Assembly: GCA_016868255.1 (NCBI GenBank) | Contig: VGHN01000001.1 | Span: 62,001-126,000, forward strand | Source of the DNA: Betaproteobacteria bacterium | GTDB taxonomy: Bacteria > Pseudomonadota > Gammaproteobacteria > Burkholderiales > Burkholderiaceae_A | Length of the DNA: 64,000 bases | Direction: 5' to 3' | Shown: positions 4,398 through 11,110 of the stretch, one piece after another | How positions within the stretch are numbered: position 1 is the stretch's first letter | Layout of the letters: every line of letters begins with the position of its first letter | The notes under the pieces: model-generated | What the model was told of the DNA's origin: nothing | The model's input: only the letters and a program-made list of their open reading frames with translations | Database searches by the model: none | Translations under genes and position numbers: made by a program

Positions 4398-7300
4398 CTA
4401 AACGGTGGCCGTCTCTTTCGAGGTCTTTGACTGGTTGCGTGCGTGAATTTCAGCCAAAGCCCGCCGGTACTCGGCAGGGAACACCTTGACAAACCTTGTT
4501 CGGGATTGGGCCCAGTGGTCGAGCACCTCTCTGGCCCTTGCGCTTCCTGTCCATCGGAGGTGTTCTTCAATCAGACGACGGAGTTGTTGTTCATCGGTGG
4601 TTGCGCGATGCCAGATGGCTGGATCCATCGTCTTTCGCTGCTCGGCATCACTCAGGACAGGCTCTAGCGTCACCATCGACATATTGCAACGACTTGCGAA
4701 ATCGCCCATGGGGTCATAGACGTAGGCAACACCACCCGACATTCCTGCGGCAAAGTTTCTGCCCGTCTGACCCAACACCACCACCGTTCCTCCAGTCATG
4801 TACTCACAGCCGTGGTCTCCTGTTCCCTCGACCACCGCCGTGGCGCCCGAGAGCCGCACTCCAAAGCGCTCTCCGGCTACCCCGCGAAAGAAGGCTTCGC
4901 CCGAGGTCGCGCCATAGAGCACCGTGTTGCCCACGACGATGTTTTCGTGGGCATCCCCGCGAAACTCAATCGAAGGTCGCACCACAATCCGCCCGCCAGA
5001 GAGGCCCTTGCCGGTGTAATCATTTGCATCGCCGATTAGATAGAGAGTGATCCCCTTGGCCAGAAATGCGCCGAATGATTGGCCACCGACACCCTCTAAT
5101 TGGATGTGCAAGGTGTCGTCCGGTAGTCCGTCGGGGTGGCGCTTGATTAACTCGCCCGAGAGCATCGCCCCGACGGTGCGATTGACATTCCGTGCCACCT
5201 CAATGAAGTGAACCTTCTCCCCCTTCTCAAGTGCTGGTTTGGACTTCTGAATCAGAATCTGATCGAGTGCCTTGTCAAGCCCGTGGTCTTGTCCCTCGGT
5301 GTGACGCAGCGCATCTGGGTTGGCCATGAATGGCTTCATAAAGAGCCGGCTGAAATCGAGACCGCGGGCCTTCCAATGTGCAATGCCCTGACGCATGTCG
5401 AGCAAATCGACCCGGCCAACCAAATCTTCAAACCGAGCGATTCCAAGTTGCGCCATGATCTGACGCACTTCCTCAGCGACGAAAAAGAAGTAATTCACTA
5501 CGTGCTCGGGCTTGCCCTGAAAGCGCTTTCTGAGCACTGGGTCCTGCGTGGCCACTCCCACTGGACAGGTATTGAGATGGCACTTGCGCATCATGATGCA
5601 TCCCTCAACCACCAAGGGGGCTGTGGCAAAACCCATCTCATCGGCTCCAAGAAGAGCAGCAATAACGACGTCTCGTCCCGTCTTCATCTGCCCATCGGCC
5701 TGCACACGAATGCGGCTGCGCAGGCCATTCATTACCAAGGTCTGCTGGGTCTCGGCCAAGCCGATCTCCCATGGCGAGCCGGCATGCTTGATCGAAGAGA
5801 GCGGGGAAGCCCCCGTGCCACCATCATGGCCCGCGATCACCACATGATCGGCCTTTGCCTTTGAAACGCCTGCGGCCACGGTTCCGACGCCCACCTCCGA
5901 TACCAGCTTGACCGAAATGTCGGCATGCGGTGCGACGTTTTTCAGGTCGTGAATGAGTTGGGCGAGGTCTTCGATTGAATAAATATCGTGATGGGGCGGC
6001 GGCGAGATAAGACCAACGCCAGGAACCGAATGCCGAAGTGTTCCGATGTAGTCGGACACCTTGCCCCCTGGCAACTGACCACCCTCGCCGGGTTTCGCAC
6101 CCTGTGCCATCTTGATCTGGACCTGATCGGCAGAGACGAGGTACTCGGTGGTGACACCGAATCGACCCGAGGCCACCTGCTTGATCTTCGAACGAAGGCT
6201 GTCGCCGTCTTCAAGGCTGTAATCGGACTCAATCTGCGCTGCGCCGATCATGTCAGAGAGCTTGGTGCCGGCGGCGATTCGTATACCCTTGAGCTCATCG
6301 CGATACCGTCGCTTGTCCTCGCCCCCCTCCCCGGTGTTTGATTTGCCCCCAATCCGGTTCATGGCGACCGCCAGAGTCGCATGGGCCTCGGTCGATATCG
6401 AGCCCAATGACATCGCCCCCGTGGCGAAACGTTTGACAATCTCAGTGACCGGTTCCACCTCCTCAATGGCGATGGCGCTTGTAGGGTCAACACGAAATTC
6501 AAAGAGCCCGCGCAGGGTCATGTGCCTGCGGCTCTGGTCGTTGATGATCTGCGCGTACTCCTTGTAGGAGTTGAACTGATTGGCCCGCGTTGCATGTTGC
6601 AGCTTCGCAATGGCATCTGGTGTCCACATGTGTTGTTCGCCGCGAGTCCGCCAGGCGTACTCACCTCCGGCATCGAGCATCTCGGCCAAGACAGGGTCCT
6701 GCCCGAATGCCTGACGGTGGGTCCGAATGGCCTCCTCTGCCATCTCGAATATTCCGATGCCCTCTACTGCGCTGGGCGTTCCAGTGAAGTAGCGATCGAT
6801 GGTGGCCGAGTTGATGCCGATGGCCTCGAAAATCTGAGCACCGCAGTAAGACATGTAGGTGGAAATTCCCATCTTGGACATGATCTTGGCCAGTCCCTTG
6901 CCAATGGCTTTCACATAATTTGCAATCGCCTTGTCTGCGCTGAGCGCTCCCGGCAGGGACTTGTGCAGCGAGACGATCGTCTCCATTGCGAGGTAGGGGT
7001 GCACTGCCTCTGCGCCATAGCCAGCGAGAACTGCAAAGTGGTGGACCTCTCGGGCTGCACCCGTCTCCACAACAAGGCCTGCAGAAGTCCTCTTCCCCGC
7101 CTGAACAAGGTGCTGATGAACTGCAGAGAGTGCCAAGAGGGATGGAATGGCAACCCGCTCGATCGAGACTCCTTTGTCGCTCAGTATCAGGATGTTGGCG
7201 CCCGAATCAATGGCATCGGCCGCCTCTGCACAGAGCGTGGAGAGCCTTGCCTCAACACCTTCCTTGCCCCAGTCGACGGGATACGTGATATCGATCACCG

Positions 7301-9080
7301 TGCTGCGAAACTTTCCTCTGGTGTGCTTCTCGATATCCCGCAAGCGCTGCATTCCTGCAAAGTCGAGGACCGGCTGATCGACCTCAAGGCGCAGCGGTGG
7401 GTTGACCTGGTTGATGTCCAGGAGATTTGGCTTGGGCCCAATGAACGAATTCAAGGACATCACAATGGCTTCACGAATCGGATCAATGGGCGGGTTTGTG
7501 ACTTGGGCGAAGAGTTGCTTGAAGTAGTTGAACAGCGGCTTGTTGCGATCGGATAAAACCGCCAGGGGCGAGTCGTTGCCCATGGAGCCCACAGCCTCCT
7601 CTCCTGCCTGTGCCATGGGGGCCAGCAGAAATTTGAGGTCTTCCTGGGTATAGCCAAACGCCTGCTGACGGTCCAGCAGCGCCAGAGCATTGGGGCTTGG
7701 CCGATTCTCGGCCATTGGGTCAAGCCCATTGAGCTCAACGCGCACATTGTCAATCCATTGCTTATACGGTCGAATCTTGGAGAGCGAGGCTTTGAGTTCC
7801 TCGTCGTGAATCATTCGACCCTGCTCAAGATCGATGAGAAACATTTTTCCTGGCTGGAGACGCCACTTCCGAACAATCTTGCTCTCGGGGATTGGCAGCA
7901 CACCCGACTCGGATGCCATCACCACAAGATCGTCATCTGTAATGCAGTAACGCGAAGGGCGCAGACCATTTCGATCGAGGGTGGCCCCAATCTGGCGGCC
8001 ATCGGTGAAGACAATGGATGCGGGGCCATCCCATGGTTCCATCATCGCGGCGTGGTACTCGTAGAAGGCCCGCCGACCTTCATCCATGGTGGTGTGCTGC
8101 TCCCACGGTTCGGGGATCATCATCATCACGGCGTGGGCCAGGGGGTAACCGGCCGCGACAAGAAGCTCTAAGCAGTTGTCGAAGGTGGCGGTGTCGGACT
8201 GGCCAGGAAAACTAATTGGGTAGAGTTTCTGCAGATCGGCGCCGAGCACAGGTGAGTTCATCACCCCCTCGCGCGCGCGCATCCAGTTGTAGTTCCCCTT
8301 GACCGTATTGATCTCCCCGTTGTGGGCCACCATTCGATAGGGATGCGCAAGGGGCCACTCGGGGAAGGTATTGGTTGAAAAGCGTTGATGCACCAGGGCC
8401 AGGGCCGAGACACAACGTGGATCCGCCAAGTCCTTGTAGTAGATGCCCACCTGATCAGCCAGCAACAGCCCCTTGTAAACCAGGGTTCGGCTCGACATGG
8501 ATGGCACGTAGTATTCCTTGCCATGCTGAAGGCGCAGAGATTGAATCGCGCTTGAGGCGGTTTTGCGTATGACGTAGAGCTTGCGCTCAAGTGCGTCCTG
8601 CACAACCACATCGGCACCTCGGCCAATGAAGAGTTGCCGGATCAATGGCTCTTTGGCACGAACCCGGGGCGACATTGGCATCGATGAGTCGGTTGGGACG
8701 TCGCGCCAGCCGAGAACAACCTGGCCCTCCGCAACCACGGCCCGCTCCAGGGCCCTCTCACAGGCGATGCGAGAGGCATGCTCCTTGGGAAGAAAGACCA
8801 TTCCCACGCCATACTCGCCGGGGGGCGGTAGCAAGACACCCTGCCGAGCCATGTCTTGCCGCAGGTAATCGTCGGGAATTTGAATCAGAATCCCCGCCCC
8901 ATCGCCCATCAATGCGTCGGCCCCCACTGCACCCCGATGGTCGAGGTTTTTCAAAATCAGGAGCCCCTGCTCGACAATTTCGTGGGACTTGTGTCCGCGG
9001 ATGTGGGCGACGAATCCGACACCGCAGGCGTCGTGTTCGTAGGAGGGGTCGTAGAGGCCTTGGGGGTGGGGGTGGGTCAT
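4398..9080 (-). CDS. gltB: Glutamate synthase (NADPH) large subunit
   Basis: The alpha subunit of GOGAT has an N-terminal Ntn-type glutaminase domain whose catalytic cysteine is in [12 protein letters not shown] (processed N terminus expected at Cys). A central domain follows, then the FMN/3Fe-4S synthase domain ([34 protein letters not shown]) and a C-terminal GltB beta-helix ([18 protein letters not shown]). Its 1560 residues are normal for proteobacteria. Together with gltD it makes the ammonia-assimilation enzyme. A sigma70-like promoter lies 31-59 bp upstream. No frameshift or missing motif was seen. Confidence 0.98.
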
Positions 9081-9110: not shown

Positions 9111-9139
9111 ATTATCCAAAGTCATGCTCCGCTTGGCAA
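9111..9139 (-). promoter_or_regulatory. Predicted sigma70 promoter for gltBD
   Basis: On the minus strand TTGCCA (9134-9139) is followed by a 17-bp spacer and GATAAT (9111-9116), one mismatch from consensus in each of the two boxes. Transcription would start about 24 nt before the gltB ATG. No clear operator was seen. Confidence 0.65.
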
Positions 9140-9172: not shown

Positions 9173-9205
9173 ATTTAAATTAGGGTCAGATCCATATTTA
9201 AATTA
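9173..9205. repeat. Direct repeat atttaaatta flanking a ggtcagatcc motif
   Basis: The 10-mer atttaaatta occurs at 9173-9182 and 9196-9205, with agggtcagatcc between. The second copy includes the stop codon of the adjacent transposase-like gene. GGGTCAGA-type and GGGGACATACC-type sequences (the latter at 9231) at the 3' end of Y1/REP transposase genes are a familiar arrangement, so this may be the residual end of the element. Confidence 0.4.
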
Positions 9206-9937
9206 ATTGATACCCGATTCCTGTTTATTTGGGGACATACCATTTCCCCCCTTGGGTCGGCCTCTGGGCCGGCTGGCCCAGGCATTCCTCTCCTCCGGTG
9301 GCAGGCGAGCCCAGTCCAGCTCAGTGAGCAGAGGACACCCACTCGCAAGCCCCTTCTCCATTCCCTGGACCAGGGACGCCTCCAATGGCTCTTGAAGGAT
9401 TCGAGCGAATGCAGCCTCCCGCTCAAACGGGGTGTTTCCAAGAGACCAGTAACCGGCAATGGTCTGAATCGGCGACATCGGTGGAGCTGCTCGTTTCCCC
9501 GCCAAGACCCCTGCCGAGGACCAAGGCCAATCCAAGGGGTCTGCGCAGAGCCCCGCCCGAACGGGCTGCCAAGCAAACCATCTCATGGCAGATAACCCAT
9601 GCGCTTGCGCAGATATCCAATAGCTTCGGTAACGCCCTTCCCATGGGGTGCCCGAACGTCGCCAACGGCGATTAAATAAAGGCACATATCGACGTCCAAC
9701 TTGCTGAATGGTCTCCGCCATCGCGCGGCTGCGTTGAGGCGTTACGAGCCAGTGGGCTTCTCGAGCCACCACCGACCAAGCATGAACCCACAGGCCGTTG
9801 CCCATGGCCGACTCCAGAAAGACGTTGATGTAAGCCTCTCTGTCCTGGGCGTCAATGCAGAAGGGCTCGTCGGCATGGCCTCGCTGGGCCAGGTGATAGG
9901 TGCGCCCCGAAACGATCTGGCGAGGTCGCCTTGCCAT
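9203..9937 (-). CDS. REP-associated tyrosine transposase (RAYT/Y1) homologue, catalytic residues lost
   Basis: A 244-residue protein with the architecture of Y1/RAYT transposases: N-terminal MARRPRQIVSGRTYHLAQRG, a central GRRYVPLFNRRWRRSGTPWEGRYRS block, QPVRAGLCADPLDWPWSS, and a basic RPRGRPKGGNG tail. In active relatives the HUH metal site reads NHVHLL; here it reads REAHWL (E60-A61-H62), so the first histidine is gone. The nucleophilic tyrosine of the RYIELNPVRAG motif is replaced by tryptophan (RWFAWQPVRAG, W120). The reading frame is otherwise full length with no stop or frameshift. It starts 12 bp downstream of aroB. It is either a decaying element or a domesticated DNA-binding protein. 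Confidence 0.85.
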   Translation of the reverse strand: MARRPRQIVSGRTYHLAQRGHADEPFCIDAQDREAYINVFLESAMGNGLWVHAWSVVAREAHWLVTPQRSRAMAETIQQVGRRYVPLFNRRWRRSGTPWEGRYRSYWISAQAHGLSAMRWFAWQPVRAGLCADPLDWPWSSAGVLAGKRAAPPMSPIQTIAGYWSLGNTPFEREAAFARILQEPLEASLVQGMEKGLASGCPLLTELDWARLPPEERNAWASRPRGRPKGGNGMSPNKQESGIN

Positions 9938-9949
9938 TTGGTGGCGGCC

Positions 9950-11092
9950 CTAAGCCGTCATGGCCTGCAGGCTTGCGCTGACTGCGCCGTCGTCTACCGG
10001 CCTGAACTCGGCCTGACCAATGCCTGTGAGCAGGATGTAACGAATACGCCCCGCGGCCGCCTTCTTGTCGTGCCGCATCCAATCAAGGTAAGTCTGGGCG
10101 GACCACTTCGGTGGCTGCGTAGGCAGGCCTGCCCGCTTCACCAACTCAAGGACTCGGGAGGCATCGTCTGCTTGCACTTGGCCCAGGTCCTGCGAGAGCC
10201 GGGTGGCCATGACCATCCCGCAACCAACAGCCTCTCCATGAAGCCAAGTCCCAAATCCAAGACCCGCCTCAATGGCGTGCCCAAACGTGTGGCCGAAATT
10301 AAGCAACGCCCGACGACCCGAAGATTCACGTTCATCCTCAGCAACCACCATGGCCTTGAGTTGGCAGGACCTTTCAATGGCATAGGCGAGACTGGCGGGA
10401 TCTCTGGCCACAAGGGCGTCCATTGATTCTTCGAGCCAGTTAAAAAACCCTTCATCGAGGCTTGCACCGTACTTAATGATTTCGGCGAGACCCGCACTGA
10501 ACTCCCTTCCCGGAAGGCTCGATAAGACCGACATATCGATCACCACCGCCTTGGGTTGGTAGAAGGCCCCAATCATATTTTTTCCAAGGGGGTGATTCAC
10601 ACCTGTCTTGCCACCAACAGAGGAGTCGACCTGGGCCAATAAAGTGGTTGGGGCCTGAACAAAACCCACCCCCCGTTGATAGCAAGAGGCGGCAAAGCCC
10701 GCCATGTCGCCCACGACACCTCCTCCCAGCGCAAGGACAGTGCTAGAGCGATCCACCTGGGCCTGCATCATTGAATCCAAAATGGTCCCGAGATGGGCCA
10801 TGTCCTTGAAGGCTTCACCGTCGGGCAAGACCACCTCAATGACCTCCTTGGCCAAGGCCTTGAGCGCGCTGACCACCGAGGCCAGGTAGAGGTGGGCAAC
10901 CGTAGTGTTGGTGACCACCACCACCTGCCGAGAATCGATGCAAGCGCTCCACACACTGGGCAGATCAAGCAGGCCCTCCCCAATCGATATCGGATAACCA
11001 CGACCGTCGCTCAGTCCAACCTCAACGGTGGCGTGAATTCGAGGCCCCGACTGACTGGCGTCGGTCGGGGGGAACGAGCGGGGCGTCTTCAT
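9950..11092 (-). CDS. aroB: 3-dehydroquinate synthase
   Basis: Second step of the shikimate pathway: DAHP to 3-dehydroquinate, using NAD and a divalent metal. Family marks seen are LPDGEAFKDM (NAD/substrate loop), ALGGGVVGDMAGFAASCYQRG, QAPTTLLAQVDSSVGGKTGVN, KNMIGAFYQP, and the metal-ligand regions around LNFGHTFGHAIE and LHGEAVGCGM. About 380 residues from the ATG at 11092 (MKTPRSF); the ORF track extends to a TTG at 11110 that abuts the aroK stop. It sits directly behind aroK, so the two are almost certainly co-transcribed and possibly translationally coupled. Confidence 0.96.
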   Translation of the reverse strand: MKTPRSFPPTDASQSGPRIHATVEVGLSDGRGYPISIGEGLLDLPSVWSACIDSRQVVVVTNTTVAHLYLASVVSALKALAKEVIEVVLPDGEAFKDMAHLGTILDSMMQAQVDRSSTVLALGGGVVGDMAGFAASCYQRGVGFVQAPTTLLAQVDSSVGGKTGVNHPLGKNMIGAFYQPKAVVIDMSVLSSLPGREFSAGLAEIIKYGASLDEGFFNWLEESMDALVARDPASLAYAIERSCQLKAMVVAEDERESSGRRALLNFGHTFGHAIEAGLGFGTWLHGEAVGCGMVMATRLSQDLGQVQADDASRVLELVKRAGLPTQPPKWSAQTYLDWMRHDKKAAAGRIRYILLTGIGQAEFRPVDDGAVSASLQAMTA

Positions 11093-11110
11093 AGGTCGTA
11101 TTGTGCCCAA

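Follow-up and report, generated by a model that had tools for sequence, protein, structure and literature searches.

A likely domesticated, non-catalytic transposase relative and its conserved two-box element at the glutamate synthase promoter of Burkholderiales

Across the Burkholderiales, a gene marked by the motif LGNTPFER usually lies directly upstream of gltB. This gene, for which the label X is used here (the open reading frame at 9203-9937 of the window, which is the whole 64,000-nucleotide stretch of DNA analysed, and its LGNTPF-type orthologues), is likely a domesticated, non-catalytic transposase that acts in trans on the transcription of gltB. X forms an orthologue group with a usual synteny, has lost its catalytic residues recurrently, is under purifying selection, and is accompanied by two conserved, regularly spaced sequence boxes at the gltB promoter. 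The boxes co-occur with X, with one exception, and remain at gltB when X lies elsewhere. Taken together, protein-level selection without the chemistry, a fixed site at a promoter, co-occurrence of protein and site, and retention of that site at gltB suggest that X is a DNA-binding protein that regulates gltB in trans. Binding of the boxes by X, an effect on gltB, and the sign of that effect are inferred, and there are no binding or expression data.

In the mechanism proposed here, X would be an immobile, vertically inherited REP/TIR-associated Y1 (TIRYT/RAYT) transposase that was domesticated in the Burkholderiales. It is predicted to bind two direct boxes, A (TGTCCCY) and B (CTGACCCY), that would derive from the termini of the element to which it once belonged, and through their position upstream of the gltB promoter to regulate glutamate synthase. 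As only binding would be needed, catalytic residues may decay repeatedly while the fold, the LGNTPFER motif and the boxes stay.

Identity, fold and catalytic residues of X

The frame of X comprises 244 codons from an ATG start, with aroB upstream and gltB downstream (Table 1). The NCBIfam profile REP_Tyr_transpos (NF047646) matches residues 5-140 with an E-value of 2.5e-11, and the score of 43.7 bits against a curated cutoff of 80 makes X a homologue under threshold. A Pfam search of X gave zero matches, and sequence searches of the PDB, Pfam and PHROGs yielded no meaningful relative. The AlphaFold2 model (mean pLDDT 92.7) met the criterion of a Y1-transposase fold. When this model was submitted to Foldseek, the top match was 4er8 (E 1.3e-7), a REP-associated tyrosine transposase in complex with a REP hairpin and the nearest solved structure to the model, followed by ISDra2 and IS608 TnpA.

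Table 1. Features of the X locus, in window coordinates
Feature	Position	Strand	Basis
X, LGNTPF-type Y1/HUH transposase relative, catalytically dead, 244 aa	9203..9937	-	ORF list, NCBIfam profile, alignment, AF2 and structure search
aroB, upstream neighbour of X	9950..11110	-	ORF/gene context
gltB, glutamate synthase large subunit, proposed target	4398..9080	-	ORF/gene context
Former HUH motif, R59-E-A-H-W-L64; E60 for His, H62 kept	9746..9763	-	alignment with intact relatives
Codon 120, Trp where the nucleophile Tyr stood	9578..9580	-	alignment with intact relatives
LGNTPFERE signature, residues 166-174, mark of the gltB-associated orthologue group	9416..9442	-	alignment
Box A, TGTCCCC, within the 3' end of X	9231..9237	-	leader comparison
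Box B, CTGACCCT, X-gltB intergenic region	9182..9189	-	leader comparison
Sigma-70-like gltB promoter, TTGCCA-17-GATAAT, 43 nt after box B	9111..9139	-	strict promoter call

In the alignment, X reads R-E-A-H and W120 where intact relatives read NHVH and Y-I-E-L-N-P. X fails the class 2 RAYT/TnpA-REP criterion, which is an HUH motif together with a Tyr nucleophile in the signature Y---NP (PMC6006769). An earlier sequence-only reading had described a full-length, 244-codon REP-type transposase downstream of aroB, and this held on the fold and profile evidence and on the gene context, with gltB on the other side. Its reading of the HUH motif as REAHWL and of the nucleophile Tyr as replaced by Trp (RWFAWQPVRAG) was likewise borne out by the alignment. 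Its claim that both catalytic motifs are replaced held only in part, as only the first HUH histidine is lost and the second, H62, is retained.

At the upstream side of X in the window (9937-9950), aroB abuts the gene directly, and a dgt-like gene is absent in this genome. Many relatives have a dgt-like gene between aroB and X, with HD-type dGTPase motifs that were judged by eye.

Orthologues and synteny

Within the genus of the window genome, a full-length X frame occupies the aroB-gltB junction in 10 of 11 genomes; the contig of the eleventh (G007) starts just upstream of the boxes, and boxes and gltB are both present. In the window genome's own family (f1), all 21 matched X copies lie between aroB and gltB, share 35-64% identity, and combine open frames with broken catalysis. 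A scan of the genome collection matched 330 relatives, and the 80 that were fetched, mostly from Sphaerotilaceae, Oxalobacteraceae and other Burkholderiales, are without exception upstream of gltB and carry LGNTPF. Because GNTPFERE was among the search patterns of that scan, the link between LGNTPF and gltB rests instead on an order-wide survey, in which the best copies were fetched from an even sample of 150 genomes of the order. X meets the criteria of a domesticated, non-mobile gene, namely a single copy, a conserved locus, and purifying selection.

Two metagenome bins labelled Bordetella parapertussis also carry X (L038, L084). The species labels of these bins look doubtful, because their X genes cluster with those of environmental Burkholderiales bins.

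Recurrent loss of the catalytic residues

The catalytic residues have been lost repeatedly, and for the most part only in the LGNTPF/gltB group. In the order-wide sample, 18 of 25 LGNTPF copies are broken and 7 intact, as against 1 broken and 52 intact among the 53 other, dispersed copies (Fisher p = 3.8e-11, a value that ignores kinship of the matches and so does not amount to a phylogenetic test). Parsimony on 120 LGNTPF proteins gave about 13 changes between intact and broken states, at least four of which are forced by well-supported branches. The underlying tree, from which the catalytic columns were left out, is a quick one with several long branches, and change counts alone carry no direction; loss is the natural direction of change because the class overall retains its catalytic residues (PMC6006769).

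The replacements take many forms. Members of f1 show E-A-H with W, A, F or Y at the nucleophile position, a further lineage has Q-x-Q with H at that position, and the family f4 has R-x-L with W, so that HUH and Tyr are both gone. The Mitsuaria/Roseateles clade reads H-x-H with Ser for Tyr; this substitution, with HUH kept, is found in all nine members (L055, L056, L068, L069, L085, L086, L095, L101 and L109).

A changed chemistry could be envisaged for f1, in which Glu-Ala-His would bind the metal and another residue, such as the family-conserved Tyr106, would act as the nucleophile. In its favour, Glu-x-His is retained in 19 of 21 f1 rows of the alignment, and Y106-W107 is invariant in a ten-member family alignment. 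The third metal-ligand position, however, lacks conservation, and in other dead lineages both histidines and the Tyr have disappeared in many ways, implying a shared function that is independent of such chemistry. This alternative is regarded as very unlikely.

Selection on dead copies

Dead X proteins are under strong purifying selection, with dN/dS of 0.01-0.14 where dS is usable, and the constraint equals that on intact ones. Values were obtained with a pairwise codon model written for this analysis. Omega is 0.04-0.11 in five dead pairs (L013/L016, L015/L016, L020/L022, L057/L078 and L063/L081), 0.14 in the dead pair L019/L022, and about 0.03-0.05 in the Tyr-to-Ser group, and it falls to 0.011-0.042 in f4, where both catalytic motifs are gone; intact pairs give 0.04-0.17. 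For the window's own X and its nearest relative, dS is saturated and a direct dN/dS is unusable.

Recent inactivation to a pseudogene was considered and is rejected by the full-length frames and low dN/dS of the dead lineages. The sequence-only reading had left the choice between recent inactivation and domestication as a DNA-binding protein; the former is thus rejected and the latter supported, by inference and without binding data. Neither of the two outcomes that it named as refuting was met: orthologues are neither absent nor pseudogenised in sister strains (full-length in 10 of the 11 genus genomes), and dN/dS in dead lineages is 0.011-0.14 rather than near 1. Two features could not be seen from the one locus, namely the order-wide recurrence of catalytic loss and the conserved, operator-like two-box element at the gltB promoter.

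The two-box element upstream of gltB

Boxes A and B, with the consensus sequences given above, are oriented in the same direction about 48 bp apart. Of the 92 X-gltB leaders, 76 contain CTGACCC, compared with a mean of 1.3 after shuffling, and TGTCCCY emerged after the leaders had been anchored on CTGACCC. The strict two-box rule is met in 72 of the 92 leaders (shuffled mean 0.06), and in only 15 of 21 in f1. The composite pattern occurs once per matching f1 genome, with a reversed-pattern control near zero, and in the window's genome the two boxes together span 56 bp (9182-9237) with a single occurrence. In the window alone, GGGTCAGATC is at chance level, and the signal comes only from the two-box arrangement and the comparison with relatives.

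The boxes have the appearance of transposon ends. Both are the reverse complement of GGGGWSAS, which has been reported as the terminal-repeat motif of TIR-associated tyrosine transposases (PMC3733652). A single box on each side is common among intact dispersed relatives; in the gltB group, two boxes lie on the side facing gltB. Of 71 non-f1 loci, 43 have an inverted left end; 15 of 21 f1 loci, the window among them, lack one, and some of the other six f1 loci seem to match fortuitously. When judged by the criterion of GGGGWSAS on both sides, the window's gene-side right boxes match, and no inverted left copy was seen in the window.

In genomes without X, the two-box pair was found in none of 22 gltB leaders, about 14 of which belong to close gltB orthologues and the rest to distant gltB copies; neither X nor boxes were found in G024 and G025, which belong to the f1 family. 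The one exception to co-occurrence is G185 (L285), which has both boxes at the gltB promoter and no detected X in an assembly that is 97% complete in 120 contigs. X may have been lost recently or may fall in an assembly gap, or the boxes may have a different reader. In some dead lineages (L041, L057, L128) the boxes are weakened or unrecognised.

In f4 (L250-L258, L278-L287), box B is changed to a near-palindromic GGGACGCACC / GGGACATACCCC, alongside strong divergence of X. The f4 boxes were identified visually and from their position, without the strict rule, and the joint change may possibly reflect co-evolution of protein and site.

An unrelated regulator might use boxes A and B, with X an independent passenger that, for example, binds other hairpins or aids replication or repair. 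This reading can draw on G185 and on the fact that DNA binding by X rests on inference, with no binding data. Against it stand the absence of the pair from all 22 X-less leaders, including those of the same-family G024 and G025, and the match of the boxes to the known terminal motif of X's own transposase type; it is considered unlikely.

Promoter phasing and displaced genes

Box B keeps a regular distance from the gltB promoter. In non-f1 leaders, a sigma-70-like -35 element starts 12-13 nt past box B in 62 of 67 cases, and in 20 of 22 under a strict promoter rule. In f1, the strict call was obtained in only 8 of 21 leaders, and in all eight, the window included, the -35 starts 43-44 nt past box B; in the two larger f1 genera, most of the other members have a -10-like hexamer at the corresponding position. 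The difference between the two groups, 31 bp, is about three helical turns of B-DNA, although this phasing was noticed post hoc and rests on two groups.

In seven genomes, X is separated from gltB. It lies at a distance of 1.5 kb in G077, 3.8 kb in G080, 8.6 kb in G179, 11 kb in G177 and 20 kb in G183, is inverted on the far side of gltB in G186, and is on another contig in G184. In six of the seven, both boxes continue to precede the gltB -35 at the usual spacing and in the same phase (11-14 nt); in G184, box B alone is found at gltB.

These observations bear on two further alternatives. The first is that X acts on RNA, by binding a hairpin in an X-gltB read-through transcript and so controlling translation or termination of gltB. 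Relatives of X are hairpin binders, and X and gltB are usually co-directional. Box B, however, lies upstream of the gltB -35, so a gltB transcript started at that promoter would not contain it, and its position is unchanged where X lies elsewhere. Single-sequence folds of the X-gltB leader showed no evident common structure that would indicate a conserved RNA hairpin. An action on RNA is thought very improbable. The second is that the locus is a neutral relic, with an inactivated transposase and former transposon ends decaying slowly and remaining beside gltB by chance. The resemblance of the boxes to transposon terminal repeats, one of which flanks each side of dispersed copies, speaks for a relic; dN/dS of 0.01-0.14 with full-length frames in dead lineages, and boxes at fixed spacing and phase that are still at gltB after the gene has moved, speak against it and leave it all but excluded.

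Under the preferred reading, in which X is a trans-acting regulator of gltB, an activator fits the position of box B better than a repressor does, since the box precedes the -35 and keeps a fixed distance in helical phase with it. Activation is accordingly the likelier sign of the effect, as inferred from site position and without experimental data on sign. A caveat to reading the boxes as an operator is that the hairpins bound by known relatives are single-stranded, whereas the site proposed here is promoter DNA.

Relation to known systems

TIRYTs, RAYTs and dead-nuclease transcription factors are all known, and in the literature searched the catalytic residues of RAYTs are described as conserved. 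X resembles the TIRYT/TIRtron systems (PMC3733652) in its Y1/HUH protein type and in the GGGGWSAS motif to which its boxes are the reverse complement. Published TIRYTs retain HUH and Tyr, whereas the catalytic site of X is lost, and the X locus differs in having two direct boxes on the gltB side that are phased to a housekeeping promoter. With the RAYT/TnpA-REP proteins of E. coli and Stenotrophomonas, which have already been termed domesticated transposases (PMC8266576, PMC6006769), X shares the fold (4er8) and similarity to REP_Tyr_transpos. Known RAYTs depend on the Tyr, and their substrates for cleavage are single-stranded REPs that carry a GTAG tag. X also has no REP-type repeats evident as a partner: the sequence-only reading had proposed a check for REP-like palindromes, and further copies of the X flanks or of the two-box element were not found in its own genome, although no de novo palindrome scan was made.

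A functional parallel to the proposed role is TldR, a nuclease-dead TnpB derivative (PMC13418256), in which a nuclease of transposon origin no longer has catalytic activity and serves to regulate transcription. TldR has an unrelated fold, is RNA-guided and has been shown experimentally, whereas X would read the ends of its ancestral element by protein alone. GltC-type regulators of Bacillus are encoded beside glutamate synthase genes and are like X in the position of the regulator gene; GltC is a LysR-family helix-turn-helix protein, unlike the transposase-related X. A link of gltB or promoter control to such a transposase was not found in the literature searched, which did not cover PMC5581495 (2017, on domesticated bacterial transposases). 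The proposed regulation of gltB by X would be new to the literature covered, and novelty relative to the groups of PMC5581495 is not established.

A bolder reading, judged more likely than not, is that throughout the order an HUH single-strand transposase now serves as a protein-only transcription factor for a central gene of nitrogen assimilation, with former element ends as its operator and catalysis lost independently in many lineages. If true, dead-nuclease transcription factors would have a bacterial equivalent that works by protein alone, and glutamate synthase in Burkholderiales would have a regulator that had not been recognised before. The host role of domesticated RAYT-type transposases is a long-standing open question, which a defined target promoter, a two-box site and naturally catalytic-dead versions make directly testable.

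A separate observation concerns G046, a genome with three dispersed intact relatives. Dispersed palindromes of TGTCCCC/GGGGACAG and CTGACCCC are present there (G046:C1:1127224, 2929152 and 3154313; L221, L224-L228) and possibly constitute a REP-like family with this terminal motif.
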